From the NCBI RefSeq assembly GCF_026341515.1, contig NZ_JAPEOK010000001.1, forward strand, positions 434,001-498,000: 64,000 nucleotides of DNA, written 5' to 3'. The notes under the pieces are model-generated. The model was not told the DNA's origin. It did not search any database and saw nothing but the letters and a program-made list of their open reading frames with translations. This stretch comes from Streptomyces sp. NBC_00878 (lineage in GTDB: Bacteria > Actinomycetota > Actinomycetes > Streptomycetales > Streptomycetaceae). Below, piece after piece: positions 1,495 to 13,167 of this stretch. The number at the start of each line of letters is the position of its first letter. Within the stretch, counting starts at the first letter, position 1. A program made the position numbers and the translations under genes.

Positions 1495-1523
1495 ATGACA
1501 ATGAAAATGATTGTCGATAACGT
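1495..1523 (+). promoter_or_regulatory. Predicted zinc/iron-type (Zur/Fur-family) operator inside a promoter
   Basis: Bases 1497-1515 read GACAATGAAAATGATTGTC, a palindrome with perfect 6-bp arms. It matches the classical 19-bp Fur consensus at 15 positions. The inner 15 bases (1502-1516) match the actinobacterial Zur box TGAAAATGATTTTCA at 13 of 15. It lies between a -35-like ATGACA (1495-1500) and a -10-like TAACGT (1518-1523) with a 17-bp spacer, so a bound repressor would occlude RNA polymerase. A leader of about 80 nt then reaches the first gene at 1609. Actinomycete DtxR/IdeR iron boxes look different (TTAGGTTAG-type), so Zur is favoured over the iron regulator. Binding is inferred. Confidence 0.75.
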
Positions 1524-1608
1524 GTGCGTCGGTCACGCCGTCCGCGCCCCGCCATGGGGTGCCCCCGGCGTGCCCGGAACGTCAACCGGCGTGCGCGAAA
1601 GGGGAGTT

Positions 1609-2865
1609 GTGGCTCATCTGTTGGTGGTCGAAAGCTGGGTCGGGTCGATGAGCAGACTGCTGCCACGGGCGATCCGGGAGGGCGGGCACGAGTTCACGTT
1701 CCTCACCCGCGATCTGCACCACTACCTGCGCTCCGCTCCGGAGGGCACGGCCCACCCCCTGCTCGCGGCCCGCAATGTACTGACCGCCGACACGAACGAC
1801 GTCGACGCCCTGCTTCCGGAGGCGGAACGTCTGCACGGGGCGCTCGCCTTCGACGGGGTGGTGACGTCCTGCGACTACTACCTGCCGACCGTGGCGCGGA
1901 TCGCCGCCCGGCTGGGGCTTCCCGGTCCGACGCCCGAGTCGGTGGAGAACGCCTGCCGCAAGGACACGACCCGCCGCGTCCTCGGCGAGGCGGGTGTCCC
2001 CGGCCCGCGCTTCGCCGTCTGCGCCGACCGGGCCGAGGCGGAGGAGGCCGCACGGGAACTCGGCTTCCCGCTGGTGGTCAAGCCGGTCGATCTGTGCGCG
2101 GGCATGTATGTGCGGCGCGTGGACGGCGAACGTGAGCTGGCGGACGCCTGTCGGGCGATCTCGGGCTTCCCGGTGAACGCCCGCGGTCAGGTCCGGGCGC
2201 CCGTCCTCCTGCTCGAAGAACTCCTCGACGGGCCCGAAGTCAGCGTGGAGACCGTGTCGTTCGACGGTACGACCCACGTCGTGGGCGTGACCGACAAGAG
2301 CGTCGGCGGAGCGCCCGCCTTCATCGAGACCGGCCACATGTTCCCGGCAGCGCTCGCGCGCGCCGACATGGAGGCCGCCCAGGACACCGCGACGCAGGCG
2401 ATCAAGGCGCTCGGTCTCGACTCCGTGGTCGCCCACACCGAGATCAAGCTGACCGCCACCGGTCCGCGTGTCGTCGAGGTGAACCCCCGCCCGGCGGGAA
2501 ACCGCATCACCGAGCTGATCCGGCACGTCACCGGACTCGACCTGGCCGCGGCCTGCGTCGACGTGGCTCTCGGCCACGCCCCCGACCTGCGCCGGAACGA
2601 CACCGGACTGCGCAGCGCCGCCGTCGGCTTCCTCGTCCCGGACGCCACGGGGACGCTGGAGGCGATCGAGGGATCCGAGCAAGTGCGGGGCGCCCAGGGT
2701 GTGTTGGAGGTCCAGCTCGCCGAACCTGGCCGGGCGGTCAACGCCGCGGGCAGCAACAACGAGTACCTCGGTCATGTCATGGCGGGCGACGCCGAGGGCC
2801 TCGGCGCACGGGCCCTCGTCGAGTCACTGCTGTCCGTGTTGCGACCGCGGGTGACGGCCCGATGA
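1609..2865 (+). CDS. ATP-grasp carboxylate-amine ligase (metallophore operon gene 1)
   Basis: A 418-residue soluble enzyme with the ATP-grasp fold: an N-terminal Rossmann-like domain (about 1-95), then the ATP-grasp domain. The phosphate-loop strand reads FPLVVKPVD, the adenine-binding strand reads LLLEELLDGPEVSVE, and the metal-binding motif is VEVNPRPAGNR. The family joins a carboxylate to an amine through an acyl-phosphate, as in BacD-like dipeptide ligases and biotin carboxylase. I place the start at GTG 1609, with AAGG about 6 nt upstream; the frame is open back to 1495, but that would run through the operator. Its stop overlaps the next gene's ATG. In context it probably builds an amide-linked chelator backbone from unusual amino acids. 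The substrates are not predictable. Confidence 0.82.
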   Translation: MAHLLVVESWVGSMSRLLPRAIREGGHEFTFLTRDLHHYLRSAPEGTAHPLLAARNVLTADTNDVDALLPEAERLHGALAFDGVVTSCDYYLPTVARIAARLGLPGPTPESVENACRKDTTRRVLGEAGVPGPRFAVCADRAEAEEAARELGFPLVVKPVDLCAGMYVRRVDGERELADACRAISGFPVNARGQVRAPVLLLEELLDGPEVSVETVSFDGTTHVVGVTDKSVGGAPAFIETGHMFPAALARADMEAAQDTATQAIKALGLDSVVAHTEIKLTATGPRVVEVNPRPAGNRITELIRHVTGLDLAAACVDVALGHAPDLRRNDTGLRSAAVGFLVPDATGTLEAIEGSEQVRGAQGVLEVQLAEPGRAVNAAGSNNEYLGHVMAGDAEGLGARALVESLLSVLRPRVTAR

Positions 2866-3905
2866 GCGCGGCGACCGACACCGGGGCAACGGCTCCCGCC
2901 GTCCAGGAACAGGAAAGGGCACCCTCGACCTCGTACGGCACCTCGACACCGGCCCCGGATCCATCCGGCACCTCGGCCCCGGATCCGTACAGCACCACGA
3001 CACCGGATCCGTACAGCACCACGACACCGGCCTCGTACGACGACCTCGTGAGCCGCGCCCTGGCCGGAGAACTCGGGCCGGACCCCCGCACCCTGCGCAT
3101 CGCCGTGGCCTTCACCACGAGTCAGGTCGTACGTCATGACGGGCGCCACGGCGGATATCGCAACGAGGTGCTCAGCCTGCGCCTCGACCGGGCCGTCGGT
3201 TCGTGTGCGGTCGAGCCGGGTGCGCTGTCCGGCGGCGCGGTGGACGACTGCGCCGGCGCGGACGTGGCGCGGCTGCTGAAGCATCCGTTGCCGCCGGTCA
3301 GGGTGGCGGCACTCGACGCCTATCTGATGCATGTCACCCCGCACACACCGGAGAACGGGGCGCTCCCCCACCCGGTCCCCGCCGGGAACTCCCTGGAGAA
3401 GTCCCGCACGCGGGCGCGGGCCGTCGTCGAGCTGCTGGAGGTGCGGCCGGGACAGACCGTGCTCGTCGTCGGAGTCGTCAACTCCCTTCTGGAGGCGCTC
3501 CGTTCACGCGGCGTCCCGTACATACCGTGCGATCTCAAGGGTGGCCGGACGGAATGGGGCGAGCCGATCGTCACCGACGCGATCGCCGAACTCGACCGCT
3601 GCGACGCCGTGTTGGCGTCCGGCATGACGCTCGGTAACGGGTCCTTCGAGCCGTTGCGGGAGCATGCCCTGCGCACCGACACGCAGTTGGTGATGTTCGC
3701 GCAGACGGGCAGTGCCGTCCTGCCGCGCTTCCTCGGTGCCGGAGTGAGCGCGGTGTGTGCGGAGCCGTACCCCTTCTTCTGGCTGGACGGCGGTCCCGGC
3801 GTCATCCACCGCTACGGACACGGGCGCCGGTCCGGCTACCGACCTGGCCAACTGTCCGGCCTCCCGTCCGGGCATCGCGACGACTGTACGGGGGACGCGC
3901 TGTGA
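2862..3905 (+). CDS. DUF4213/DUF364 'putative heavy-metal chelation' protein
   Basis: A 347-residue protein. Residues 1-60 are a low-complexity Pro/Ser/Thr leader containing a duplicated DPYSTTTP unit. The rest resembles the DUF4213 plus DUF364 pair: an enolase-N-like region (about 65-165), then a Rossmann-like region with TVLVVGVVNSLLEALRSRG, CDLKGGRTEWGEP, LASGMTLGNGS and an aromatic stretch AEPYPFFWLDGG. Pfam names DUF364 a putative heavy-metal chelation domain; the biochemical role is not established. Start and stop overlap both neighbours by 4 nt (ATGA and GTGA), so it is translated as part of the operon. A role in making, carrying or loading a metal chelator is inference from family and context. 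Confidence 0.65.
   Translation: MSAATDTGATAPAVQEQERAPSTSYGTSTPAPDPSGTSAPDPYSTTTPDPYSTTTPASYDDLVSRALAGELGPDPRTLRIAVAFTTSQVVRHDGRHGGYRNEVLSLRLDRAVGSCAVEPGALSGGAVDDCAGADVARLLKHPLPPVRVAALDAYLMHVTPHTPENGALPHPVPAGNSLEKSRTRARAVVELLEVRPGQTVLVVGVVNSLLEALRSRGVPYIPCDLKGGRTEWGEPIVTDAIAELDRCDAVLASGMTLGNGSFEPLREHALRTDTQLVMFAQTGSAVLPRFLGAGVSAVCAEPYPFFWLDGGPGVIHRYGHGRRSGYRPGQLSGLPSGHRDDCTGDAL
2981..3028 (+). repeat. In-frame 24-bp direct duplication in the DUF364 gene
   Basis: Two identical 24-bp copies beginning GGATCCGTACAG encode the repeated DPYSTTTP unit in the disordered leader of the DUF364 protein. The length is a multiple of three, so the frame is kept. Confidence 0.9.
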
Positions 3906-4987
3906 CGACGGCCGCGCCGCGTCCCCTCACCGCCAACCCCGAGCTCCTCGCCCTGCTCGGCCGCACGCCGCTGGCCCGGGTGACCACCGATCTGCCCTGC
4001 CCCCAGCCCGGTTTCTGGGCCAAGCTCGAAGGGCTCGGCGCCGGTGGCATGAAGGCGCGGGCCGCCGTGTCCATGCTGCTCGGCGCCCGGGAGCGGGGTG
4101 AACTGCGGTCCGGCGCACCAGTGGTGGAGTCCACCTCGGGAACGCTGGGAATCGGTCTCGCCTTCGCCGGGCAGGCACTCGGCCATCCCATCGTGCTGGT
4201 CGGCGACACCGAACTGGAGCCGTCCATGCGGCAGTTGCTGCGCGCATACGGGATCCGCCTCGAACTCGTCGACCGTCCGGCGGCCGTGGGCGGCTGGCAG
4301 GCGGCGCGGCTGGCCCGGCTGCGGGAACTGCTCGCGGTGCTCCCGGACGCGTACTGGCCCGACCAGTACAACAACCCGGACAACATCGCCGGTTACGCGT
4401 CGCTCGCCGCCGAACTCGCCACCCAGCTCGACCACTTGGACGTACTGGTGTGCAGTGTCGGCACGGGCGGTCACAGTGCCGGGGTGGTGGGGCCGCTGCG
4501 CAGGCACTGGCCCGGGCTGCGGCTGATCGGGGTGGACGCCACCGGCTCCACCATCTTCGGGCAACCTGCCAGGCCCCGCCTGATGCGCGGCCTGGGCAGC
4601 AGCATCCATCCGCGCAACGTGGCCTACGAAGCCTTCGACGAGGTGCACTGGGTCGGCCCGGCCGAGTCCGCGGACGCCTGCCGGCGCCTCGCGCGCGGGA
4701 GTTTCGTCAGCGGCGGCTGGAGCACGGGAGCCGTCGCGCTCGTCTCCGCCTGGGCCGCCCGCGTCCATCCCGGGGCCGTCGTCGCCACCGTCTTTCCCGA
4801 CGGGCCGCACCGCTATCTCGGCACGGTCTACGACGACGACTTCACGGCTGCGCACGGCCTCGACCCGGCCGGCGCCGCCACCCGGCCCGTCGAGATCCCG
4901 CATCCACGTGCCGTCGAGGCCACCGGCTGGGTCCGCTGCGCCACGGTCACCGACCCCCTGCACACCCCCTTGGAGGGGAGCCCGTGA
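3902..4987 (+). CDS. PLP-dependent cysteine-synthase-like enzyme (SbnA-type)
   Basis: A 361-residue fold-type II PLP enzyme. The cofactor lysine is in GAGGMKARAAVSM near residue 48. The substrate loop STSGTLGIGLA replaces the TSGNTG of cysteine synthases, and SVGTGGHSAGVV is the phosphate-binding Gly loop. These enzymes do beta-replacement on O-acyl- or O-phosphoserine. Relatives in metallophore pathways (SbnA of staphyloferrin B, AesA of the EDDS zincophore) make 2,3-diaminopropionate precursors or similar N-linked amino acids. No SbnB-like dehydrogenase or argininosuccinate-lyase-like partner is present, so the product probably differs. GTG start overlaps the upstream TGA by 4 nt. The activity is family knowledge; its use in chelator synthesis is inference. 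Confidence 0.75.
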   Translation: MTTAAPRPLTANPELLALLGRTPLARVTTDLPCPQPGFWAKLEGLGAGGMKARAAVSMLLGARERGELRSGAPVVESTSGTLGIGLAFAGQALGHPIVLVGDTELEPSMRQLLRAYGIRLELVDRPAAVGGWQAARLARLRELLAVLPDAYWPDQYNNPDNIAGYASLAAELATQLDHLDVLVCSVGTGGHSAGVVGPLRRHWPGLRLIGVDATGSTIFGQPARPRLMRGLGSSIHPRNVAYEAFDEVHWVGPAESADACRRLARGSFVSGGWSTGAVALVSAWAARVHPGAVVATVFPDGPHRYLGTVYDDDFTAAHGLDPAGAATRPVEIPHPRAVEATGWVRCATVTDPLHTPLEGSP

Positions 4988-6084
4988 AGGCCACCCTGCG
5001 TACCGCGCGGCTCACGCTCACCGAGCCGCTGCGCATATCCCGGTCGACGATGACCGCCCGCGACGCCGTCTGGCTGACGGTCGAGCACGAGGGCCTCAGC
5101 GGCCACGGGGAGGCCGTCACCAGCGTCTACTACGGCCTCGACTCGGCAGTACTGGAACGGCAGTTGTACGAGGCCGGCCTGGATCTGGGCCGCTTCGGCG
5201 ACCCCGAGAGTGCGCTGCGCGAGGGGCCCGCGGGCGACCGGCCGCCCGCGGTGACGGCGGCCGTCGAAGCCGCGTTGCTCGACCTGTGCGGCAAGCGGTC
5301 CGGCCTCCCCGTGCACCGGCTGCTCGACGCGAAGAGCGCCCGGACCGCTTGGACCGCTCCGGGCGCTCGGACCACTCCGAGCCCTCCGAGCCCTCCGAGC
5401 GCCCGGACCGCCCGCACCATCGGTATCGTCCCCGTCGAGCGCGCCGCCGCGCAGGCCCGCTCGCTCGCGGACAGCGGCTTCACCGTCATCAAGGTCAAGG
5501 CGGGCACACCGGATCCCGAGGACGACCTCGACCGCGTGCGCGCCATCGCGTCCGCCGCGCCCCGGGCCCGGCTGCTCCTCGACCCCAATGGCGCCTGGAC
5601 GTTCACCGAAGCCCTGCAACTGCTCCCCCCTTACGCGGAGTTGGGCGTCGAGGCCGTCGAACAGCCCCTCGCGGCCGGTGATCCGGAGTCCCTGGCACGG
5701 CTCGCCGAGCGTTCACCGCTGCCCCTGATCGCCGACGAGGACGCCGTCACGTACGAGGACGTACGCCGTCTCGCGGGCCGGGTGCACGGCGTGAACGTCA
5801 AGCTCGCCAAGTGCGGCGGTCCCCACGCGGCCCTGCGGATCGCCGAGTTGATCGAGGGCAGCGGCACCGAGCTGATGCTCGGCTGTCTCACCGCGAGCAC
5901 GCTCGGCCTGGCTCCCGCCGTGCATCTCGCCGACCGCGCCCGCTGGGCCGACCTCGACGGCCATCTGCTGCTCGCCGACGACCCGTGGACCGGTATCGGG
6001 GGCGCCGACGGTGTCGTACGGGCAAATGACCTCCCCGGGCTCGGCGTACGGGAGAGGCGGGTGGGCCGTGAAGACGCTGCATGA
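4984..6084 (+). CDS. Enolase-superfamily dipeptide epimerase-like protein
   Basis: A 366-residue member of the muconate-lactonizing/dipeptide epimerase branch of the enolase superfamily. The capping domain is at about 1-115. The barrel carries the acid-base lysines in TVIKVKAG, metal ligands in LLDPNG, VEQPLA and IADEDA, and the opposite-face lysine in VNVKLAKCGG. Such enzymes epimerise L-Ala-L-Glu-like dipeptides. A low-complexity insert rich in Thr, Pro, Ser and Arg (about 118-143) sits between cap and barrel and is not a normal part of the family. GTGA overlap with the upstream gene shows translational coupling. Next to an ATP-grasp ligase, it likely inverts a stereocentre in the newly made amide. 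Confidence 0.78.
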   Translation: MKATLRTARLTLTEPLRISRSTMTARDAVWLTVEHEGLSGHGEAVTSVYYGLDSAVLERQLYEAGLDLGRFGDPESALREGPAGDRPPAVTAAVEAALLDLCGKRSGLPVHRLLDAKSARTAWTAPGARTTPSPPSPPSARTARTIGIVPVERAAAQARSLADSGFTVIKVKAGTPDPEDDLDRVRAIASAAPRARLLLDPNGAWTFTEALQLLPPYAELGVEAVEQPLAAGDPESLARLAERSPLPLIADEDAVTYEDVRRLAGRVHGVNVKLAKCGGPHAALRIAELIEGSGTELMLGCLTASTLGLAPAVHLADRARWADLDGHLLLADDPWTGIGGADGVVRANDLPGLGVRERRVGREDAA

Positions 6085-7318
6085 GATACGTGGCTTCTCG
6101 CCCGCGATCCGGCTGCTCCTGGTCAACCAGCTCGGCGTCAACACCGGTTTCTATCTGCTCATCCCCTATCTGGCCACGCATCTCGGCGAGGACCTGGGCA
6201 TGTCGGCGGCCGTCGTCGGGATCGTGCTCGGGGTGCGCAATCTCAGCCAGCAGGGGCTGTTCCTCATCGGTGGATCGGCCGCGGACCGGCTCGGAGCACG
6301 CGGCGTGATCATCGCCGGGTGCGCGGTACGTACCGTCGGCTTCGCGCTGTTCGCGCTCGGGGACGGGCTCGCGGTACTGCTGGCCGCGTCCGTGCTGAGC
6401 GGGCTCGCGGGGGCGCTGTTCAACCCGGCCGTGCGGGCCTACCTCGCGCAGGAGGCCGGTGAGCGCAAGGCGGAGGCGTTCGCGCTGTTCAACGTGTTCG
6501 CGACCACGGGTGCGCTGATCGGGCCGTTGCTCGGCAGTGTCCTGCTGCTGGTCGACTTCCGGGCCTCCGCGCTCACGGCCGCGGGGATCTTCGCGGTGCT
6601 GACGGTGGCTCAGGCGCTGGTGCTGCCCTCGCGGGCGGTGCCTCCGAGCTCCGGCGGTGTGCTCGCGGACTGGCGTGAGGTGGTGGGCAACCGCGCGTTC
6701 CTGGCTTTCTCGTGCGCCATGGTCGGCATGTTCACGCTGGAGAACCAGCTGTACTTGCTGCTGCCCGAGGGCGCCCGCCGTGCCACGGGCTGGGACGGCG
6801 CGGCCGGACTCGTCTTCGTCGTCGGCACGCTCGCCAATCTCGCTCTGCAGATGCGGCTGACACGGGCGTTGAAGGCGCGCGGCCGACAGGTCATCGGTGT
6901 CGGGCTCGCGCTGATGGGGCTCGCGTTCGTGCCGCCGATGCTGGTGTCGGGTGCCTCGCCGGAGGTGTGGCACGCCGCACCCGTCCTCGTCGGCGTCCTG
7001 TTCCTCTACGTCGGTGTCATGGTCGCCCAGCCCTTCGTGATGGAGCTGATCCCCGGCTTCGGGCGGCCGGAGCTGACCGGCACGTACTTCGGGATCTTCT
7101 ACATGGTGTCCGGGATCGCGGCGGCGGTGGGCAACACGGTCGTCGGCTGGGCCATGGACACCGGTGACGACCGGAGCGCGGCCTGGCTGCCGTGGGCCTG
7201 CTGTCTGGTCTTCGGGCTGGTGTCGGCGGGCGCGGTCACCTGGCTGCGCCGCCGCGGGGCGCTGCCCGAGCTGCCGGTGCCCAGGTCCCGGTCCGAGCCC
7301 GTGGAGGCGACGGCATGA
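6068..7318 (+). CDS. MFS transporter, probable metallophore exporter
   Basis: A 416-residue major facilitator protein with about 12 hydrophobic segments. The motif A loop is GGSAADRLGARG after TM2, and there is a long central cytoplasmic stretch between TM6 and TM7. Start GTG 6068 overlaps the upstream gene by 17 nt and has a GGGAGAGG-type ribosome site. A single MFS exporter beside biosynthesis genes and a Nik/Cnt-like ABC importer matches the layout of opine metallophore loci, where CntE exports staphylopine. Export of the product of this operon is the simplest reading; a drug-efflux role is the alternative. Confidence 0.8.
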   Translation: MKTLHEIRGFSPAIRLLLVNQLGVNTGFYLLIPYLATHLGEDLGMSAAVVGIVLGVRNLSQQGLFLIGGSAADRLGARGVIIAGCAVRTVGFALFALGDGLAVLLAASVLSGLAGALFNPAVRAYLAQEAGERKAEAFALFNVFATTGALIGPLLGSVLLLVDFRASALTAAGIFAVLTVAQALVLPSRAVPPSSGGVLADWREVVGNRAFLAFSCAMVGMFTLENQLYLLLPEGARRATGWDGAAGLVFVVGTLANLALQMRLTRALKARGRQVIGVGLALMGLAFVPPMLVSGASPEVWHAAPVLVGVLFLYVGVMVAQPFVMELIPGFGRPELTGTYFGIFYMVSGIAAAVGNTVVGWAMDTGDDRSAAWLPWACCLVFGLVSAGAVTWLRRRGALPELPVPRSRSEPVEATA

Positions 7319-8094
7319 CGAGCGGGAATCTGCTGACCGACAACCCGGAGCTGTACGAGGCCCGGTTCCCCGATCCCGAACGACTGGCCGGGCGGTGGGC
7401 CGAGGACTGCCTGCGGCGGTACGCGGCCGGTGCGAGGGTCCTCGACCTGGGCTGCGGCACCGGTCGGGACGCGGCCCAACTGCACGCGTCCGGGCGGACG
7501 GTCGTCGGGGCCGACCTCTCCGAGGCGATGCTGGCGTACGCCCGCGACCGGCATCCGGGTCCGGAGTACGTCCACGCCGATCTGCGGGACTTCTCGCTCG
7601 GGGAGTTCGACGCGGTGGTGTCTCTGGACAGTTCGCTGCTGTACTGCCACACCAATGACGACCTCGACGGCTTCCTCGCCTCCTGCCGCCGGGGCCTGGC
7701 ACCGGGCGGGCTGCTCGTCGCCGAGATGCGCAACGGCGCCTACTTCCTCGGCCGCGACGGCCTGTTGAACACGCCGAGGCCCAACTCCTTTGCCTGGCAC
7801 GGGACTTCGTACCGGTCGACAACCACGCTTCACGTCGACCGCACCGCGCAACTCCTGCGGCGTACCCGTGTATGGACCGCCGACGACGGCTCGGCTCCCG
7901 TCGAACAGCGGTCGGCCTGGCGGCTGCTCCTGCCGCAGGAACTGCGTCACTTCCTGACCTCCCACGGCTTCACCGTGCTCGCGCTGCACGACGGCCCGGG
8001 GCCGCGAACCGAACCGCCGTGGCAGGAAGGCGACCTGCCCGGGACGGCGGCCGAAGCCGACCGGCTGCACGTGGTGGCCCGGCTCGACGCCTGA
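7315..8094 (+). CDS. Class I SAM-dependent methyltransferase (metallophore operon)
   Basis: A 259-residue soluble protein with motif I VLDLGCGTGRDAAQL near residue 43, acidic residue in GADLSEAM, and a post-I HADLRDFSL. The C-terminal half is the lid and substrate region (AWRLLLPQELRHFLTSHGF). It begins at an ATG inside the exporter's stop (ATGA overlap). It probably N- or O-methylates an intermediate of the chelator. The substrate is not visible in sequence. Confidence 0.8.
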   Translation: MTSGNLLTDNPELYEARFPDPERLAGRWAEDCLRRYAAGARVLDLGCGTGRDAAQLHASGRTVVGADLSEAMLAYARDRHPGPEYVHADLRDFSLGEFDAVVSLDSSLLYCHTNDDLDGFLASCRRGLAPGGLLVAEMRNGAYFLGRDGLLNTPRPNSFAWHGTSYRSTTTLHVDRTAQLLRRTRVWTADDGSAPVEQRSAWRLLLPQELRHFLTSHGFTVLALHDGPGPRTEPPWQEGDLPGTAAEADRLHVVARLDA

Positions 8095-8163
8095 TCGCAC
8101 CGCACACCGCTGCCTCATCCACCCCTCCCCACCTCACTCACCTCACACAGCAAGGACATCGTC

Positions 8164-9753
8164 ATGCGGGAATACCCCGGCCTCCGTCGCAGAGGCTTCC
8201 TCGCCGCCGCCTCAGGAGTGGGCGCCCTCGCCCTCGTCGGCTGCGGCGGCTCGGACAATGAATCGGGCAACGACTCCGGCTCGGGTACGGGCGGCGGGAG
8301 CGACGGAAAGCCCCGGCGCGGCGGGCGGCTGCGGGCCGCCTTCGCGGGCGGTGGCGCGAGCGAGACGCTCGATCCGCATCTGGCCAACCTCTTCGCCGAC
8401 GCGGCCCGCGCCAAGGCACTCTTCGACAAGCTCGCCGACTACGGCGACGATCTCTCCGCCCAGCCACGCCTGGCCTCCGGCTGGGAGCCGAACGCGGGCC
8501 TGGACCGCTGGCGGGTCACCCTGCGGAAGGCGGACTTCCACGACGGGAAGCCCGTCACCGCCGAGGATGTGCTGTTCAGCTACCGCCGGATCGCCGACCC
8601 CGAGAAGGCGTTCCGTGCCAGGGCGTCCCTCGAACCCATCGACCTGAAGGCGAGCCGGGCCGTCGGCGAACGGACCATGGAATTCGTCCTCAAGCGGCCG
8701 ATCGCCGAATTCCCCAACGTCCTGGCCGCGTTCGGCGCATACATCGTGCCCGACGGGACGTCGGATGCCGACTTCGACAAGAAGCCGGTCGGCTCCGGGC
8801 CGTTCCGTTTCGTGTCGTTCGCGCCGGGCCGCTCGGCGGTCTTCCGCCGCAACGACGCCTACTGGGACGGCGCCCCGCACCTCGACGAGCTGGAGTTCGT
8901 CGTCGCCAACGAGGAGTCCGCGCGGGTCAACGCGCTGCTCGGCGGGCAGGTCGAGTACGCCCATGAGCTCAACCCGACGACCGCACGCGCCCACGAGGGC
9001 AAGGGCCGGATCCAGATCGTACGGTTGCGGAACAGCGCCATGCAGGCCTTCGCCATGAAGACGGACCGGGCCCCCTTCGACGACAAGCGGGTCCGGGAGG
9101 CGTTCTTCCTGATCGCCGACCGGCAGGAGCTGATCGACGGCGCACTGTCCGGGGCGGGCGTGGTCGGCAACGATCTGTTCGGCAAGGGGTACGAGTACTA
9201 CGCGGAAGGTCTGCCGCAGCGTCGGCAGGACCTCGACCGGGCCCGCTCCCTCCTGAAGAAGGCGGGCGCGGAGAAGCTGAAGGTCACGCTGGACACGTCG
9301 GCGGTCGCGGCCGGTTTCACCGAGGCGGCCGGCATCTTCCGCGACCAGGCCGCCAAGGCCGGAGTCACCGTCGACGTGAAGATGGGCAGCAAGGACTCGT
9401 ACTGGGCGGACATCCTCGATTCCGGGACCCTGTGCTGCTACCGCTCGGGGGCCATGCCCATCGAGTCGCACATCTCGCAGCGGCTGCTCACCGACTCCAC
9501 CACCAACGCCACCCAGTGGCACCACAAGGACTTCGACGCGCTCTACCACCAGGCGCAGTCCACGAAGGACGAGACGGAACGCACCGCCGTGTTCGGGCGG
9601 ATGCAGCGCAGGCTGTACGCCGAGGGCGGCTTCCTGGTGTGGGGGTTCGCCGACTGGATCATCGGAACGGGCCGTGCTGTCAAGGGAGTTGAGCGGTCAG
9701 CGCCCGCGAACTCACTGGACTGGGCGCGGTTCGACAAGGTCTGGCTGGCGTGA
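8164..9753 (+). CDS. ABC transporter substrate-binding lipoprotein (SBP family 5, NikA/DppA/CntA type)
   Basis: A 529-residue extracellular solute-binding lipoprotein. The signal has a twin-arginine motif (RRRGFLAAAS) and a lipobox ending LALVGC, followed by a Gly/Ser linker. The mature part has family-5 landmarks: WRVTLRKADFHDGKPVTAEDVLFSYRRI and PVGSGPFRF. This family binds oligopeptides, nickel chelates and opine-metal complexes. It follows the methyltransferase by 69 nt with an AAGGA site, the only real gap in the operon, and overlaps the permease start (GTGA). It most likely captures the metal-loaded product of the upstream genes at the cell surface. Confidence 0.85.
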   Translation: MREYPGLRRRGFLAAASGVGALALVGCGGSDNESGNDSGSGTGGGSDGKPRRGGRLRAAFAGGGASETLDPHLANLFADAARAKALFDKLADYGDDLSAQPRLASGWEPNAGLDRWRVTLRKADFHDGKPVTAEDVLFSYRRIADPEKAFRARASLEPIDLKASRAVGERTMEFVLKRPIAEFPNVLAAFGAYIVPDGTSDADFDKKPVGSGPFRFVSFAPGRSAVFRRNDAYWDGAPHLDELEFVVANEESARVNALLGGQVEYAHELNPTTARAHEGKGRIQIVRLRNSAMQAFAMKTDRAPFDDKRVREAFFLIADRQELIDGALSGAGVVGNDLFGKGYEYYAEGLPQRRQDLDRARSLLKKAGAEKLKVTLDTSAVAAGFTEAAGIFRDQAAKAGVTVDVKMGSKDSYWADILDSGTLCCYRSGAMPIESHISQRLLTDSTTNATQWHHKDFDALYHQAQSTKDETERTAVFGRMQRRLYAEGGFLVWGFADWIIGTGRAVKGVERSAPANSLDWARFDKVWLA

Positions 9754-10703
9754 GCGGACTGGGCTCGTGGGCCGCCCGGCGGCTGCTGCTCGGAGGTGCG
9801 CAGACCGTGGCCGTGGTGCTGCTGGTCTTCGTACTCACCGAGGCGCTGCCGGGCGACGCGGCGGTGGCCCTGGTCGGCGACCAGCCGGATCCGGCGCGGA
9901 TCGCCGCCGTCCGCGAGGCGCTGGACCTGGACCGCCCCGCGTACGAGCGGCTCGCCGACTGGGCAACTGGCCTGCTACACGCAGACTTTGGGGACTCACT
10001 GACATCCGGGCGGCCCGTCTCCTCGTACATATCCGACGCCTTCGGGCCCACCCTGCTCCTCGCCGGTCTCACGGTCGCGTTGCTGGTCCCGGTCGGGTTC
10101 GGGCTCGGAGTGCTGGCCGCGCGGTTCGAGGGGCGGTTCGTGGACCGGCTGGTCAGTTCGGTGACGCTCGGGGTGTACGCGGTACCGGAGTTCGCGTTCG
10201 GGGTGCTGCTGGTGACGGTCTTCGCGCTGCGGCTCGACTGGCTGCCACCGACGGCGGTCGGTTACGGCACGGATCTGCTCGGGCATCCGGCCGCGCTCGT
10301 GCTGCCGGTGCTCGTCCTGCTGTCGCGGCCGGTGTGCTCGCTGTCCCGGCTGGTGCGCGCCGGGATGATCGACGCGCTCGCCTCGCCGTACGTCGCACAG
10401 GCCCGCCGGTACGGGATCCCGGGCGCCCGGGTGCGATACGCGCACGCGCTGCCGAACGCGATGGCACCGGCAGCACAACAACTCGCCCGCACCGTCGACT
10501 GGTTGTTGTGCGGGGTGATCGTGGTGGAGGCACTGTTCGTGATTCCCGGGCTGGGGACCGTACTGATGAACGCCGTCGCCGAGCGGGATGTGCCGGTGGT
10601 GCAGGGGCTGGCGGTGGTCTTCGGGGTGATCACCGTGGTGCTGAACCTGGGGGCCGATCTCGTCGCGCACCGGTTCGCGCCACGGGCGGAGGTGGCCGCG
10701 TGA
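9750..10703 (+). CDS. ABC transporter permease, DppB/NikB type
   Basis: A 317-residue inner-membrane permease with about six hydrophobic helices. It has the N-terminal RRLLLGGAQTVAVVLLVFVL helix of this family and the LPGD periplasmic motif. The cytoplasmic EAA-type loop reads ARRYGIPGARVRYAHALPNA and contacts the ATPase. GTG start within the upstream stop and the same arrangement downstream put it in the import module. Works with the second permease and the fused ATPase. Confidence 0.88.
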   Translation: MSGLGSWAARRLLLGGAQTVAVVLLVFVLTEALPGDAAVALVGDQPDPARIAAVREALDLDRPAYERLADWATGLLHADFGDSLTSGRPVSSYISDAFGPTLLLAGLTVALLVPVGFGLGVLAARFEGRFVDRLVSSVTLGVYAVPEFAFGVLLVTVFALRLDWLPPTAVGYGTDLLGHPAALVLPVLVLLSRPVCSLSRLVRAGMIDALASPYVAQARRYGIPGARVRYAHALPNAMAPAAQQLARTVDWLLCGVIVVEALFVIPGLGTVLMNAVAERDVPVVQGLAVVFGVITVVLNLGADLVAHRFAPRAEVAA

Positions 10704-11572
10704 GAGGACGGACGAAGTGGCTGCCGTCGGGGCGCTTCGCGCTCGCGGCCGCTCTCGTTTGCGTACCGCTGGTCCTGGTTCTGTTCGGGCCGCTGTTCGC
10801 GGGTGAACCCGGGCCGCGGGCCACGTCGTTCACGCTCGGCGGCGGGCACTGGCTCGGCACGGACTTCGTGGGGCGTGACGTGTGGCGACAGGTGCTGCTC
10901 GGCGGCCGACCCGTGGTGGTCGTGGCGCTCGCGGCGACGACGCTGGCGTATCTGGTGGCGCTGCCGGTCGGGCTGATCAGCGCACTCACTCACCGAACTT
11001 GGTTGGAGGAGGTGCTGATGCGACCGTTGGACGTGCTCCTCGCCGTGCCGTCGCTGCTGATGATCCTGCTGGTCGCGTCGGTGTTCTCGCCCGGGGCGGG
11101 TGGTCTCGCTCTGCTGGTGGCGCTCGTCAATATCCCGGACGCGGCGCGCATCGTGCGCGCCGCGGCGGCTGATGTGGCCTCGCGTCCGGCGGTGGAGGCG
11201 CTGCGGATGCAGGGCGAGTCGTGGTGGCGCATCGCCGTCGGACATGTCGGCCGGTCGATCCTGCGGCCGCTCGCCGCCGACGCGGGGGTACGGCTGACAG
11301 GCGCCCTCTATCTGGTGGCCACGGCCGCCTTCCTGGGCATCGGAGTGGCCCCGGACGCGGCCGACTGGGCGGTGATGGTGGACCGCAACCGTACGGGGCT
11401 GTTCGTGCAGCCGTGGGCCGTGGTGGTCCCGGCACTGCTGATCGTGACGCTGACGATGGGGTGCAATCTGCTGTTCGACGCGCTGCTGCTCAGCACCGAA
11501 CGGGCTGACGTTCGGAACGGCGTTCGCCATGGGGTTCGTGCTCGTGACCATGTGAAGGAGCCACGTCCGTGA
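10700..11572 (+). CDS. ABC transporter permease, DppC/NikC type
   Basis: A 290-residue membrane protein. After the first helix comes the family motif GGGHWLGTDFVGRDVWRQVL, matching the HxLGTDxxGRD signature of the DppC/NikC group. Helices follow, with the EAA loop EALRMQGESWWRIAVGH. The last residues are hydrophilic and Arg-rich. GTGA overlaps on both sides link it to the partner permease and ATPase. Confidence 0.88.
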   Translation: MRGRTKWLPSGRFALAAALVCVPLVLVLFGPLFAGEPGPRATSFTLGGGHWLGTDFVGRDVWRQVLLGGRPVVVVALAATTLAYLVALPVGLISALTHRTWLEEVLMRPLDVLLAVPSLLMILLVASVFSPGAGGLALLVALVNIPDAARIVRAAAADVASRPAVEALRMQGESWWRIAVGHVGRSILRPLAADAGVRLTGALYLVATAAFLGIGVAPDAADWAVMVDRNRTGLFVQPWAVVVPALLIVTLTMGCNLLFDALLLSTERADVRNGVRHGVRARDHVKEPRP

Positions 11573-13167
11573 GCGAGTCGACCGCGGTCGCGGAGATCGA
11601 GGAGCTGACCGTCGAGGTCGGCGGGCGGCGCATCGTCGACGGGGTGAGCCTGCGGGTTCTGCCGGGAAAGGTGACCGCGCTGGTCGGTGCCTCCGGCAGC
11701 GGGAAGACGACGACAGGGCGTGCGCTGCTCGGCGAGTTCCCGTCGGGCGCGCGGGTGACGGGCTCCGTACGGTTGGAAGGCTCCGTACGGGTGAACGGCC
11801 TCGCACGAGTGGACGAGGCCTTGGTCGGTTATGTCCCGCAGCATCCGGCGGCGGTGCTCAACCCCGCGCGGCGGGTGGGTGCGCTGCTGTTCGACATCGC
11901 GCGCGGCCATGTGCGCGAACTGCCCCGCCGTGCTCGTCGGGCCGCGGCGCGCGAGCATGTCCTGCGGGCCTTGGACATGGCTCAACTACCGGACGGATCA
12001 CGCCTGTTGAGACACTTCCCGCATCAGCTCTCGGGCGGGCAGCAGCAGCGTGTCGTCCTCGCACAGGCCCTGCTTCTCGGCGCGCGGGTCGTCGTCGCGG
12101 ACGAGCCCACCACCGGGCAGGACGCGCTGACGAAGCGACGCGTGGTGGACGAGCTGGCGGCGGTCGCCGCGCGGGGTATCGGCATCGTCCTGCTCAGCCA
12201 CGACCTGGAGACCGTACGCGCACTCGCCGACGAGGTACTGGTCATGCGGGACGGCCGGGTCGTGGAGTCCGGGCCCACGGAACGGGTGTGGCTCGCGCCC
12301 TCTCATCCGTGGACGCGTGAACTCCTCGCGGACCGGCCGACGTTGACGGGCGAGGCACCGGAAAGGTCGGACTCGCACACCGTGCTGCGGGTCCGCGGTC
12401 TCCGTGCCCGGCACCGCGGCGTCGAGGTGCTGCATGCCCCGGAACTCGCCCTGCGGTCCGGCGAGTGCGTCGCTGTCCTCGGCCGCTCGGGCAGCGGAAA
12501 GACGACACTGGCCCGCTGCATTGCCGGGCTCCACCGCACGTACGAAGGAGAGGTGCTGCTCGACGAGGTCCCGCTGCCGCCCAGTCTGCGCGACCGTACG
12601 CGCGGTCAACTGGCCGCCGTGCAGTACGTGTTCCAGGACGCGCGGGCCTCCTTCGACGAACGTCGGCCGGTGTTCGACCAGGTGGCCCGTACGGCGGTAC
12701 GGCTGCGTGGGGTGCCTCCCCAGGCGGCGCGAGCGGAGGCGTCAGCCGTGCTCAACAGCCTCGGCCTGGCGGACGAGTTGGCGGCCCGGTCCCCTGCCGG
12801 GCTCTCCGGTGGTGAACTCCAACGGGCCGCGCTGGCACGGGCCCTGCTCGCCCGGCCGCGGGTCCTGGTGTGCGACGAGATCACCTCCGGGCTCGACACG
12901 GTCACCCGCCGGGGCATCCTCGACCTGCTCGCCGGGCTGCTGCGCGACCGCGGCGACCTGTCCCTCGTACTGATCACGCACGACCTGGACACGGCCCGAC
13001 TCGCCGCCAGGATCGCGGTGTTGGACGCCGGAGAGGTGGTCGAGCAAGGGGCGGCCCAGGACATCCTGACGGCGCCCGCGCATCCATTCACCGTGTCATT
13101 GCTGGAGAAGCGATCGATGGAGAAGCGATGTGCGGAGAGACGATTGGTGGAGAAGCGGCGGGGTTAG
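11569..13167 (+). CDS. Fused ABC transporter ATPase (DppD-DppF type)
   Basis: A 532-residue protein with two complete nucleotide-binding domains. NBD1: Walker A GASGSGKTT near residue 42, signature LSGGQQQRV, Walker B VVVADEPT. NBD2: Walker A GRSGSGKTT near residue 307, signature LSGGELQRA, Walker B VLVCDEIT. The fusion replaces the two separate ATPases of Nik/Opp systems. It powers the two upstream permeases. The C-terminal tail is a run of imperfect EKR-containing repeats (about 512-531) with no family equivalent. GTG start overlaps the permease stop. It is the last gene of the operon; no clear terminator follows. Confidence 0.9.
   Translation: MSESTAVAEIEELTVEVGGRRIVDGVSLRVLPGKVTALVGASGSGKTTTGRALLGEFPSGARVTGSVRLEGSVRVNGLARVDEALVGYVPQHPAAVLNPARRVGALLFDIARGHVRELPRRARRAAAREHVLRALDMAQLPDGSRLLRHFPHQLSGGQQQRVVLAQALLLGARVVVADEPTTGQDALTKRRVVDELAAVAARGIGIVLLSHDLETVRALADEVLVMRDGRVVESGPTERVWLAPSHPWTRELLADRPTLTGEAPERSDSHTVLRVRGLRARHRGVEVLHAPELALRSGECVAVLGRSGSGKTTLARCIAGLHRTYEGEVLLDEVPLPPSLRDRTRGQLAAVQYVFQDARASFDERRPVFDQVARTAVRLRGVPPQAARAEASAVLNSLGLADELAARSPAGLSGGELQRAALARALLARPRVLVCDEITSGLDTVTRRGILDLLAGLLRDRGDLSLVLITHDLDTARLAARIAVLDAGEVVEQGAAQDILTAPAHPFTVSLLEKRSMEKRCAERRLVEKRRG
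13103..13159 (+). repeat. 12-bp imperfect tandem repeats at the ATPase 3' end
   Basis: Four imperfect copies of TGGAGAAGCGAT encode the EKR/ERR-rich C-terminal tail of the fused ATPase and stop just before its TAG codon. Confidence 0.75.

Follow-up and report, generated by a model that had tools for sequence, protein, structure and literature searches.

A conserved ten-gene Streptomyces operon behind a Zur-type operator, predicted to make a zinc chelator without an NRPS

Ten genes of Streptomyces sp. NBC_00878 form a compact operon behind a Zur-type operator, and the operon and its box recur together in other Streptomyces and in other families. We consider it probable, at about three chances in four, that the operon serves to synthesize a small zinc chelator without an NRPS, to release it and to take it up again. 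This is the best explanation of the gene content, the layout and the conservation of the unit and its box that we observed.

The operon and its operator

The window, which is the whole stretch of 64,000 nucleotides analyzed here, corresponds to positions 434001-498000 within the 11.1-Mb genome. The sequence-only reading of this DNA had proposed ten coupled genes behind a Zur-type operator. All ten were found on one strand, nearly gapless from 1609 to 13167, with the operator ahead of them at 1496-1520. At eight of the nine junctions the neighboring genes overlap, by 4-17 nt; only the methyltransferase and binding protein genes are separated, by 69 bp. Profile scans of all ten proteins agreed with the gene families assigned earlier. 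The features are as follows.

1496-1520, plus strand: Zur-type operator; 15-bp core at 1502-1516, overlapping second register from 1496
1609-2865, plus strand: ATP-grasp ligase of the L-amino acid ligase type (PF13535, 74 bits; LAL_C2, 53.5 bits)
2862-3905, plus strand: DUF364 protein, probable chelator-assembly enzyme (DUF364 profile)
3902-4987, plus strand: SbnA-like PLP beta-substitution enzyme (PALP; TIGR03945, 240 bits)
4984-6084, plus strand: enolase-superfamily epimerase of the dipeptide epimerase type (MR_MLE_C, 141.9 bits)
6068-7318, plus strand: MFS transporter, probable exporter by inferred direction (MFS_1, 114.6 bits)
7315-8094, plus strand: SAM-dependent methyltransferase (Methyltransf_25, 70.2 bits)
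8164-9753, plus strand: solute-binding protein of the importer (SBP_bac_5, 259.6 bits)
9750-10703, plus strand: ABC permease 1 (BPD_transp_1, 93 bits)
10700-11572, plus strand: ABC permease 2 (BPD_transp_1, 70.4 bits)
11569-13167, plus strand: double ABC ATPase (ABC_tran, two stretches)

The ATP-grasp gene had been placed at 1495. The gene itself stood, but this start did not: only the open frame begins at 1495, just 5ʹ of the operator. The codon GTG at 1609 stands behind AAAGGGGAG, is conserved as a start in relatives, and is most likely where the gene begins. Divergent to the ligase gene, a gene that by eye resembles a secreted alpha/beta hydrolase was seen in some loci (L085:8350-9843, L137:8349-9854 and L138:8327-9835).

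The operator core, TGAAAATGATTGTCG (1502-1516), agreed at 10 of 11 fixed positions with tGaNNatSatNNtCa, the ChIP-derived motif of Zur in S. coelicolor (PMC5472717, excerpt), and stands about 100 bp before the ligase start. The sequence TGAAAATGATTNTC had a single exact match in the genome, at the operator. When one mismatch to the published 15-bp motif was allowed, 141 sites were found in the same genome, so the loose motif by itself cannot identify an operator. The operator was judged instead by its conservation, by a 25-bp matrix and by control tiles. The matrix was built from 38 distinct sites of the 80 named loci described below, and was applied outside those loci because their promoters are orthologous and hence not independent. 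By this matrix of the relatives the operator scored 50.2 bits, while the rest of the 64-kb window gave at most 6.3 bits, overlapping registers aside. When 12 upstream regions were aligned, the box was the main conserved block, with only 7 of the 11 positions matched in one locus, L049. On these sequence grounds, the operon is very probably controlled by Zur.

Conservation of the operon and of its box

Of 150 genomes of the genus, counting the one studied here, 40 had an orthologue of the DUF364 gene with at least 64% identity, and the operon was complete and collinear in 10 of the 11 loci of such orthologues that were examined. The named loci are the best 80 of 236 matches, of which 79 are from Streptomyces, S. 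flavidovirens (L136) among them, and one is from Wenjunlia; 75 of the 80 had enough downstream sequence to be testable. The whole operon was collinear, complete and on one strand in 73 of these 75. The two exceptions were L083, which ends at the edge of the locus, and L095, which has lost the genes from the MFS transporter to the ATPase. L049 has lost the methyltransferase and the importer.

The same gene set was sought in other genomes, as the sequence-only reading had advised, and the operon was found to recur also beyond Streptomyces. In another family (f46), a ligase of 59-65% identity was present in 16 of 120 genomes, and the full collinear operon was found at 49-74% identity in 14 of 14 loci, which represent 14 of the 16 carriers (G390 was counted as L158 and G585 was left out). 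Two loci of other families, L157 and L158, possessed all ten genes at 44-71% identity. Since the importer is kept with the biosynthetic genes over such distance, synthesis, export and import would serve one molecule.

A GNAT acetyltransferase gene, absent from the window, adjoins the cluster in at least 26 of the 80 named loci (best 80 of 236, some of them short), in 12 of the 14 f46 loci, and in both L157 and L158. Examples are L194:2060-2668 and L049:2007-2609, and a Zur-type box lies near the gene in L193-L196. Modification of the ligand and protection of the cell are possible roles of the acetyltransferase.

Homologous operons without a metal-regulator box had been named beforehand as the observation that would speak against zinc control. 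A box matching at least 8 of the 11 positions was found upstream in all 80 named loci (best 80 of 236), with 10 matches in 40 loci, 9 in 39 and 8 in one; a match of 9 or more was found in 146 of 3787 random 400-bp windows. A box was likewise present in all 14 f46 loci; it scored 13.3-31.5 bits and lay 56-75 bp upstream, in either orientation. The box scored 27.7 bits in L157 and 20.8 bits in L158. The earlier proposal withstood this check.

The matrix was also applied to known kinds of Zur target, which in S. coelicolor include znuA and genes of alternative ribosomal proteins (PMC6103462, excerpt). Around znuA of the own genome, the top matches in the surrounding 5.5 kb lay just before and across the start, with 17.7 and 14.6 bits. 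For the L33/L31 ribosomal pair the top match, of 20.1 bits, was upstream in the 3.2 kb scanned around L31; this test consists of one locus, L172, whose L33 gene was recognized by eye from the DNA. At L168, which holds a plus-strand L28 gene, no site matched more than 6 of the 11 positions. Ten control stretches of 9.4 kb gave at most 4.2 bits, and of 918 control tiles, each 400 bp long and taken from 20 of the 80 named loci, none reached 13 bits.

In the f46 loci, 7 of 747 tiles reached 13 bits. High-scoring sites were located ahead of the importer genes in L194 and L195, and close to the distal end of the operon in L193-L196. The extra Zur-type site stands directly before the importer genes at L194:8217-8247 and L195:7323-7347, which suggests that in some species zinc controls the importer genes through a promoter of their own. 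Another ATP-grasp ligase, of 39-45% identity, was found in 7 of the 120 f46 genomes; in L203-L208 the rest of the operon was absent, and an upstream Zur-type site of 11-23.5 bits was present in 6 of 6 loci.

Enzymes, transporters and the predicted chelator

The ligase has ATP-grasp_4 and LAL_C2 domains, and its closest solved protein is BL00235 (3vot, 4.8e-34). The second protein scored 30.1 bits with the DUF364 profile (PF04016) against a cut-off of 23, and the DUF364 fold was confirmed. Chelator synthesis was proposed for DUF364 in a structure paper of 2010 (PMC2954201, excerpt), and the names of the 120 relatives listed give the domain, call the protein hypothetical, or are lacking. The protein of the window has a repetitive Pro/Thr/Ser-rich N-terminal extension of 57 residues (2862-3032); many relatives among the matches listed are of only about 280 residues.

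The best solved match of the PLP enzyme was SbnA (7.7e-44), followed by CmnB. We term it SbnA-like only, because its score of 240 bits with TIGR03945 is under the equivalog cut-off of 349.95. Arg132 and Tyr152 of SbnA correspond to R136 and Y156 of the enzyme, and Ser185 is replaced by G187. Across 81 sequences, the first two of these O-phosphoserine residues were kept in at least 98% and the third was Gly.

The epimerase belongs to the MR_MLE enolase superfamily. Its closest solved protein was 3iji, followed by 4gfi and the dipeptide epimerase 3jva. Dipeptide epimerases have a KxK motif, D/E/D metal ligands, a KxxK motif and a DxD motif, and KVK, DPN, EQP, ADED, KLAK and DLDG are all present in the window protein. 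DLDG was found in 78 of 81 relatives and the other motifs in 75-80 of the 81, counted with a strict pattern and with some relatives incomplete. Both the PLP enzyme and the epimerase were under every equivalog cut-off listed; for the epimerase, DgcA gave 201 bits against 400, and the E. coli Ala-Glu epimerase 125 bits against 343. The types of the ligase and the epimerase fit the making of an L,D-dipeptide (PMC13338154, excerpt). A methylated, amide-linked chelator with one inverted center is a reasonable prediction from the L-amino acid ligase type of the first enzyme and the DxD dipeptide motif of the epimerase.

An MFS transporter and a Nik/Cnt-like ABC importer had also been proposed. Both families were found, the importer being of the Opp/Nik type with scores below the cut-offs of the Nik and Cnt models. 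The binding protein gave 142 bits with the NikA-type model NF045468, the double ATPase was closest to NikD (297 bits), CntF (284 bits) and CntD, and solved proteins close to the binding protein include peptide and opine binders. The MFS protein is a probable exporter, and the chelator is the predicted cargo of the importer.

We infer the following scheme, in which the zinc response, the order of steps, the substrates, the product and the directions of transport are all predicted. Under zinc shortage, Zur would dissociate from the operator (1496-1520), and transcription of the operon would follow. The SbnA-like enzyme would couple the amine of a second amino acid to an activated serine, probably in the form of O-phospho-L-serine. 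The resulting N-(2-amino-2-carboxyethyl)-amino acid would remain intact, since no SbnB that could cleave it is encoded in the operon. On the same skeleton, the DUF364 protein would catalyze a partner step. An amide bond would come from the ATP-grasp ligase, inversion at the C-terminal alpha carbon of the dipeptide from the epimerase, and the capping of one group from the methyltransferase. The chelator would then be exported by the MFS protein, and its metal complex retrieved by the Opp/Nik-type ABC system.

The product might instead be a metallophore for other or several metals, such as nickel, cobalt or copper, which came under Zur control by chance, like the broad-range opine metallophores. 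The importer is indeed closest to the nickel and staphylopine ABC families; however, its Nik name is family history with every score below the cut-off, and the box fits Zur rather than a nickel box and is the same motif that marks znuA and the L33/L31 pair. We regard this as unlikely. Slightly less likely still is a weapon of zinc starvation, that is, an antibiotic or an inhibitor of zinc enzymes released at scarcity, with the importer serving something else. Chemistry of the ligase, SbnA-like and dipeptide epimerase kinds also occurs in antibiotic pathways, and CmnB is the next solved match of the PLP enzyme after SbnA. The importer, however, stays in the operon in 73 of the 75 testable loci and has its own box in L194 and L195, and the operon contains no resistance or target gene.

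The zinc chelator we favor was compared with known metallophores. Coelibactin, EDDS and pseudopaline are among the published metallophores under Zur control (PMC6103462, excerpt), and EDDS is made without NRPS or NIS (PMC4993170 and PMC6103462, excerpts). The [S,S]-EDDS system of Amycolatopsis japonicum is like the operon in both respects, whereas the operon instead has a ligase, a DUF364 protein, an epimerase and a methyltransferase. The EDDS pathway has an SbnA-like enzyme, and its genes reportedly include SbnB-like and lyase-type enzymes; family scans found no SbnB-like dehydrogenase or lyase-type enzyme among the ten operon proteins. This absence among the ten proteins also speaks against an EDDS- or L-Dap-type pathway whose PLP enzyme feeds an SbnB-like cleavage encoded elsewhere in the genome. 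We regard such a pathway as very unlikely, even though the operon has an SbnA-like enzyme and a Zur box, and EDDS too is Zur-controlled and formed without NRPS or NIS (PMC4993170, excerpt).

Staphylopine and pseudopaline resemble the operon in having an MFS transporter; staphylopine also has an Opp/Nik-type importer, and pseudopaline is Zur-controlled. They differ in their nicotianamine-synthase-like enzyme and opine dehydrogenase, and neither of these nor a DapF-type racemase had a match among the ten operon proteins. Coelibactin of S. coelicolor is likewise a Zur-controlled Streptomyces metallophore, but its pathway is an NRPS. Staphyloferrin B, which is Fur-controlled in Staphylococcus (PMC12414870, excerpt), shares the SbnA-like PLP enzyme, of which the operon version keeps two of the three O-phosphoserine residues; it differs in SbnB and its IucA/IucC synthetase, which were not matched in the operon. 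NRPS modules and IucA/IucC synthetases were absent from the ten proteins, consistent with the NRPS independence claimed earlier. Full-text searches of open-licence PMC papers found no description of the ten-gene set, and the earlier claim that no described system has this enzyme set still holds within the literature searched.

That the operon serves peptide salvage, with an oligopeptide importer, a dipeptide epimerase and an incidental Zur box, is hardly credible: Opp-type importers and Ala-Glu-type epimerases do serve the recycling of cell-wall peptides (PMC13338154, excerpt), but salvage leaves unexplained the ligase, the PLP enzyme, the DUF364 protein, the MFS transporter and the box kept in two families.

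A second system with DUF364 and a PLP enzyme

DUF364 proteins of 36-43% identity were found in 27 of the 150 genomes, and the named carriers include Nocardiopsis, Amycolatopsis and S. ambofaciens ATCC 23877. In 15 of 15 such loci read (L051-L058 and L159-L165), the neighborhood of the DUF364 gene includes an SbnA/CysK-like enzyme with 29-35% identity. A box of 20-37 bits was present in 14 of the 15 (L052-L058, L159-L165), and L051 had no Zur-type box by the matrix (1.1 bits). Two distant DUF364 loci, L059 (14.3 bits) and L167 (6.1 bits), in which no relative of the PLP enzyme was found, were left out of this count. This second system resembles the operon in its DUF364 protein, its SbnA/CysK-like enzyme, its Zur-type box and, where annotated, its MFS transporter (L053, L161). 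It differs in having a FecCD/Peripla_BP_2 importer (L052), a GHMP kinase (L058, L161) or a PhyH dioxygenase (L053), and another methyltransferase, which was weakly matched. No relative of the ligase or the epimerase of the operon was found in the 15-19 kb read at these loci. A gene for a Fur-family regulator (PF01475, 61.3 bits) adjoins the second-system cluster at L053:6626-7036.

Only 1 of the 150 genomes had both systems, compared with an expected 7.2 (Fisher p 0.0016, without correction for kinship), and in that genome the ten-gene operon is the decayed one of L049. We read the two systems as alternatives that would meet the same need. We lean slightly towards the view that DUF364 and an SbnA-like PLP enzyme are the catalytic core of an unrecognized class of actinobacterial zincophores. 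The class would have at least two versions, usually one per genome: one with the ligase, epimerase and methyltransferase and an Opp/Nik importer, and one with a kinase or dioxygenase and a FecCD importer. If this is true, DUF364 is a chelator-assembly enzyme, which would answer a question open since the structure paper of 2010.

In the genus, roughly one sampled genome in four (40 of 150) has a DUF364 orthologue of the operon type. If a zincophore is made, it would be among the commoner routes of zinc acquisition in soil actinobacteria, and it would give DUF364 enzymes a first role, so that their function would become directly testable. It would also represent a compact pathway to natural chelators of zinc, such as inhibitors of zinc enzymes and metal-mobilizing ligands, which searches for NRPS or NIS genes would miss.
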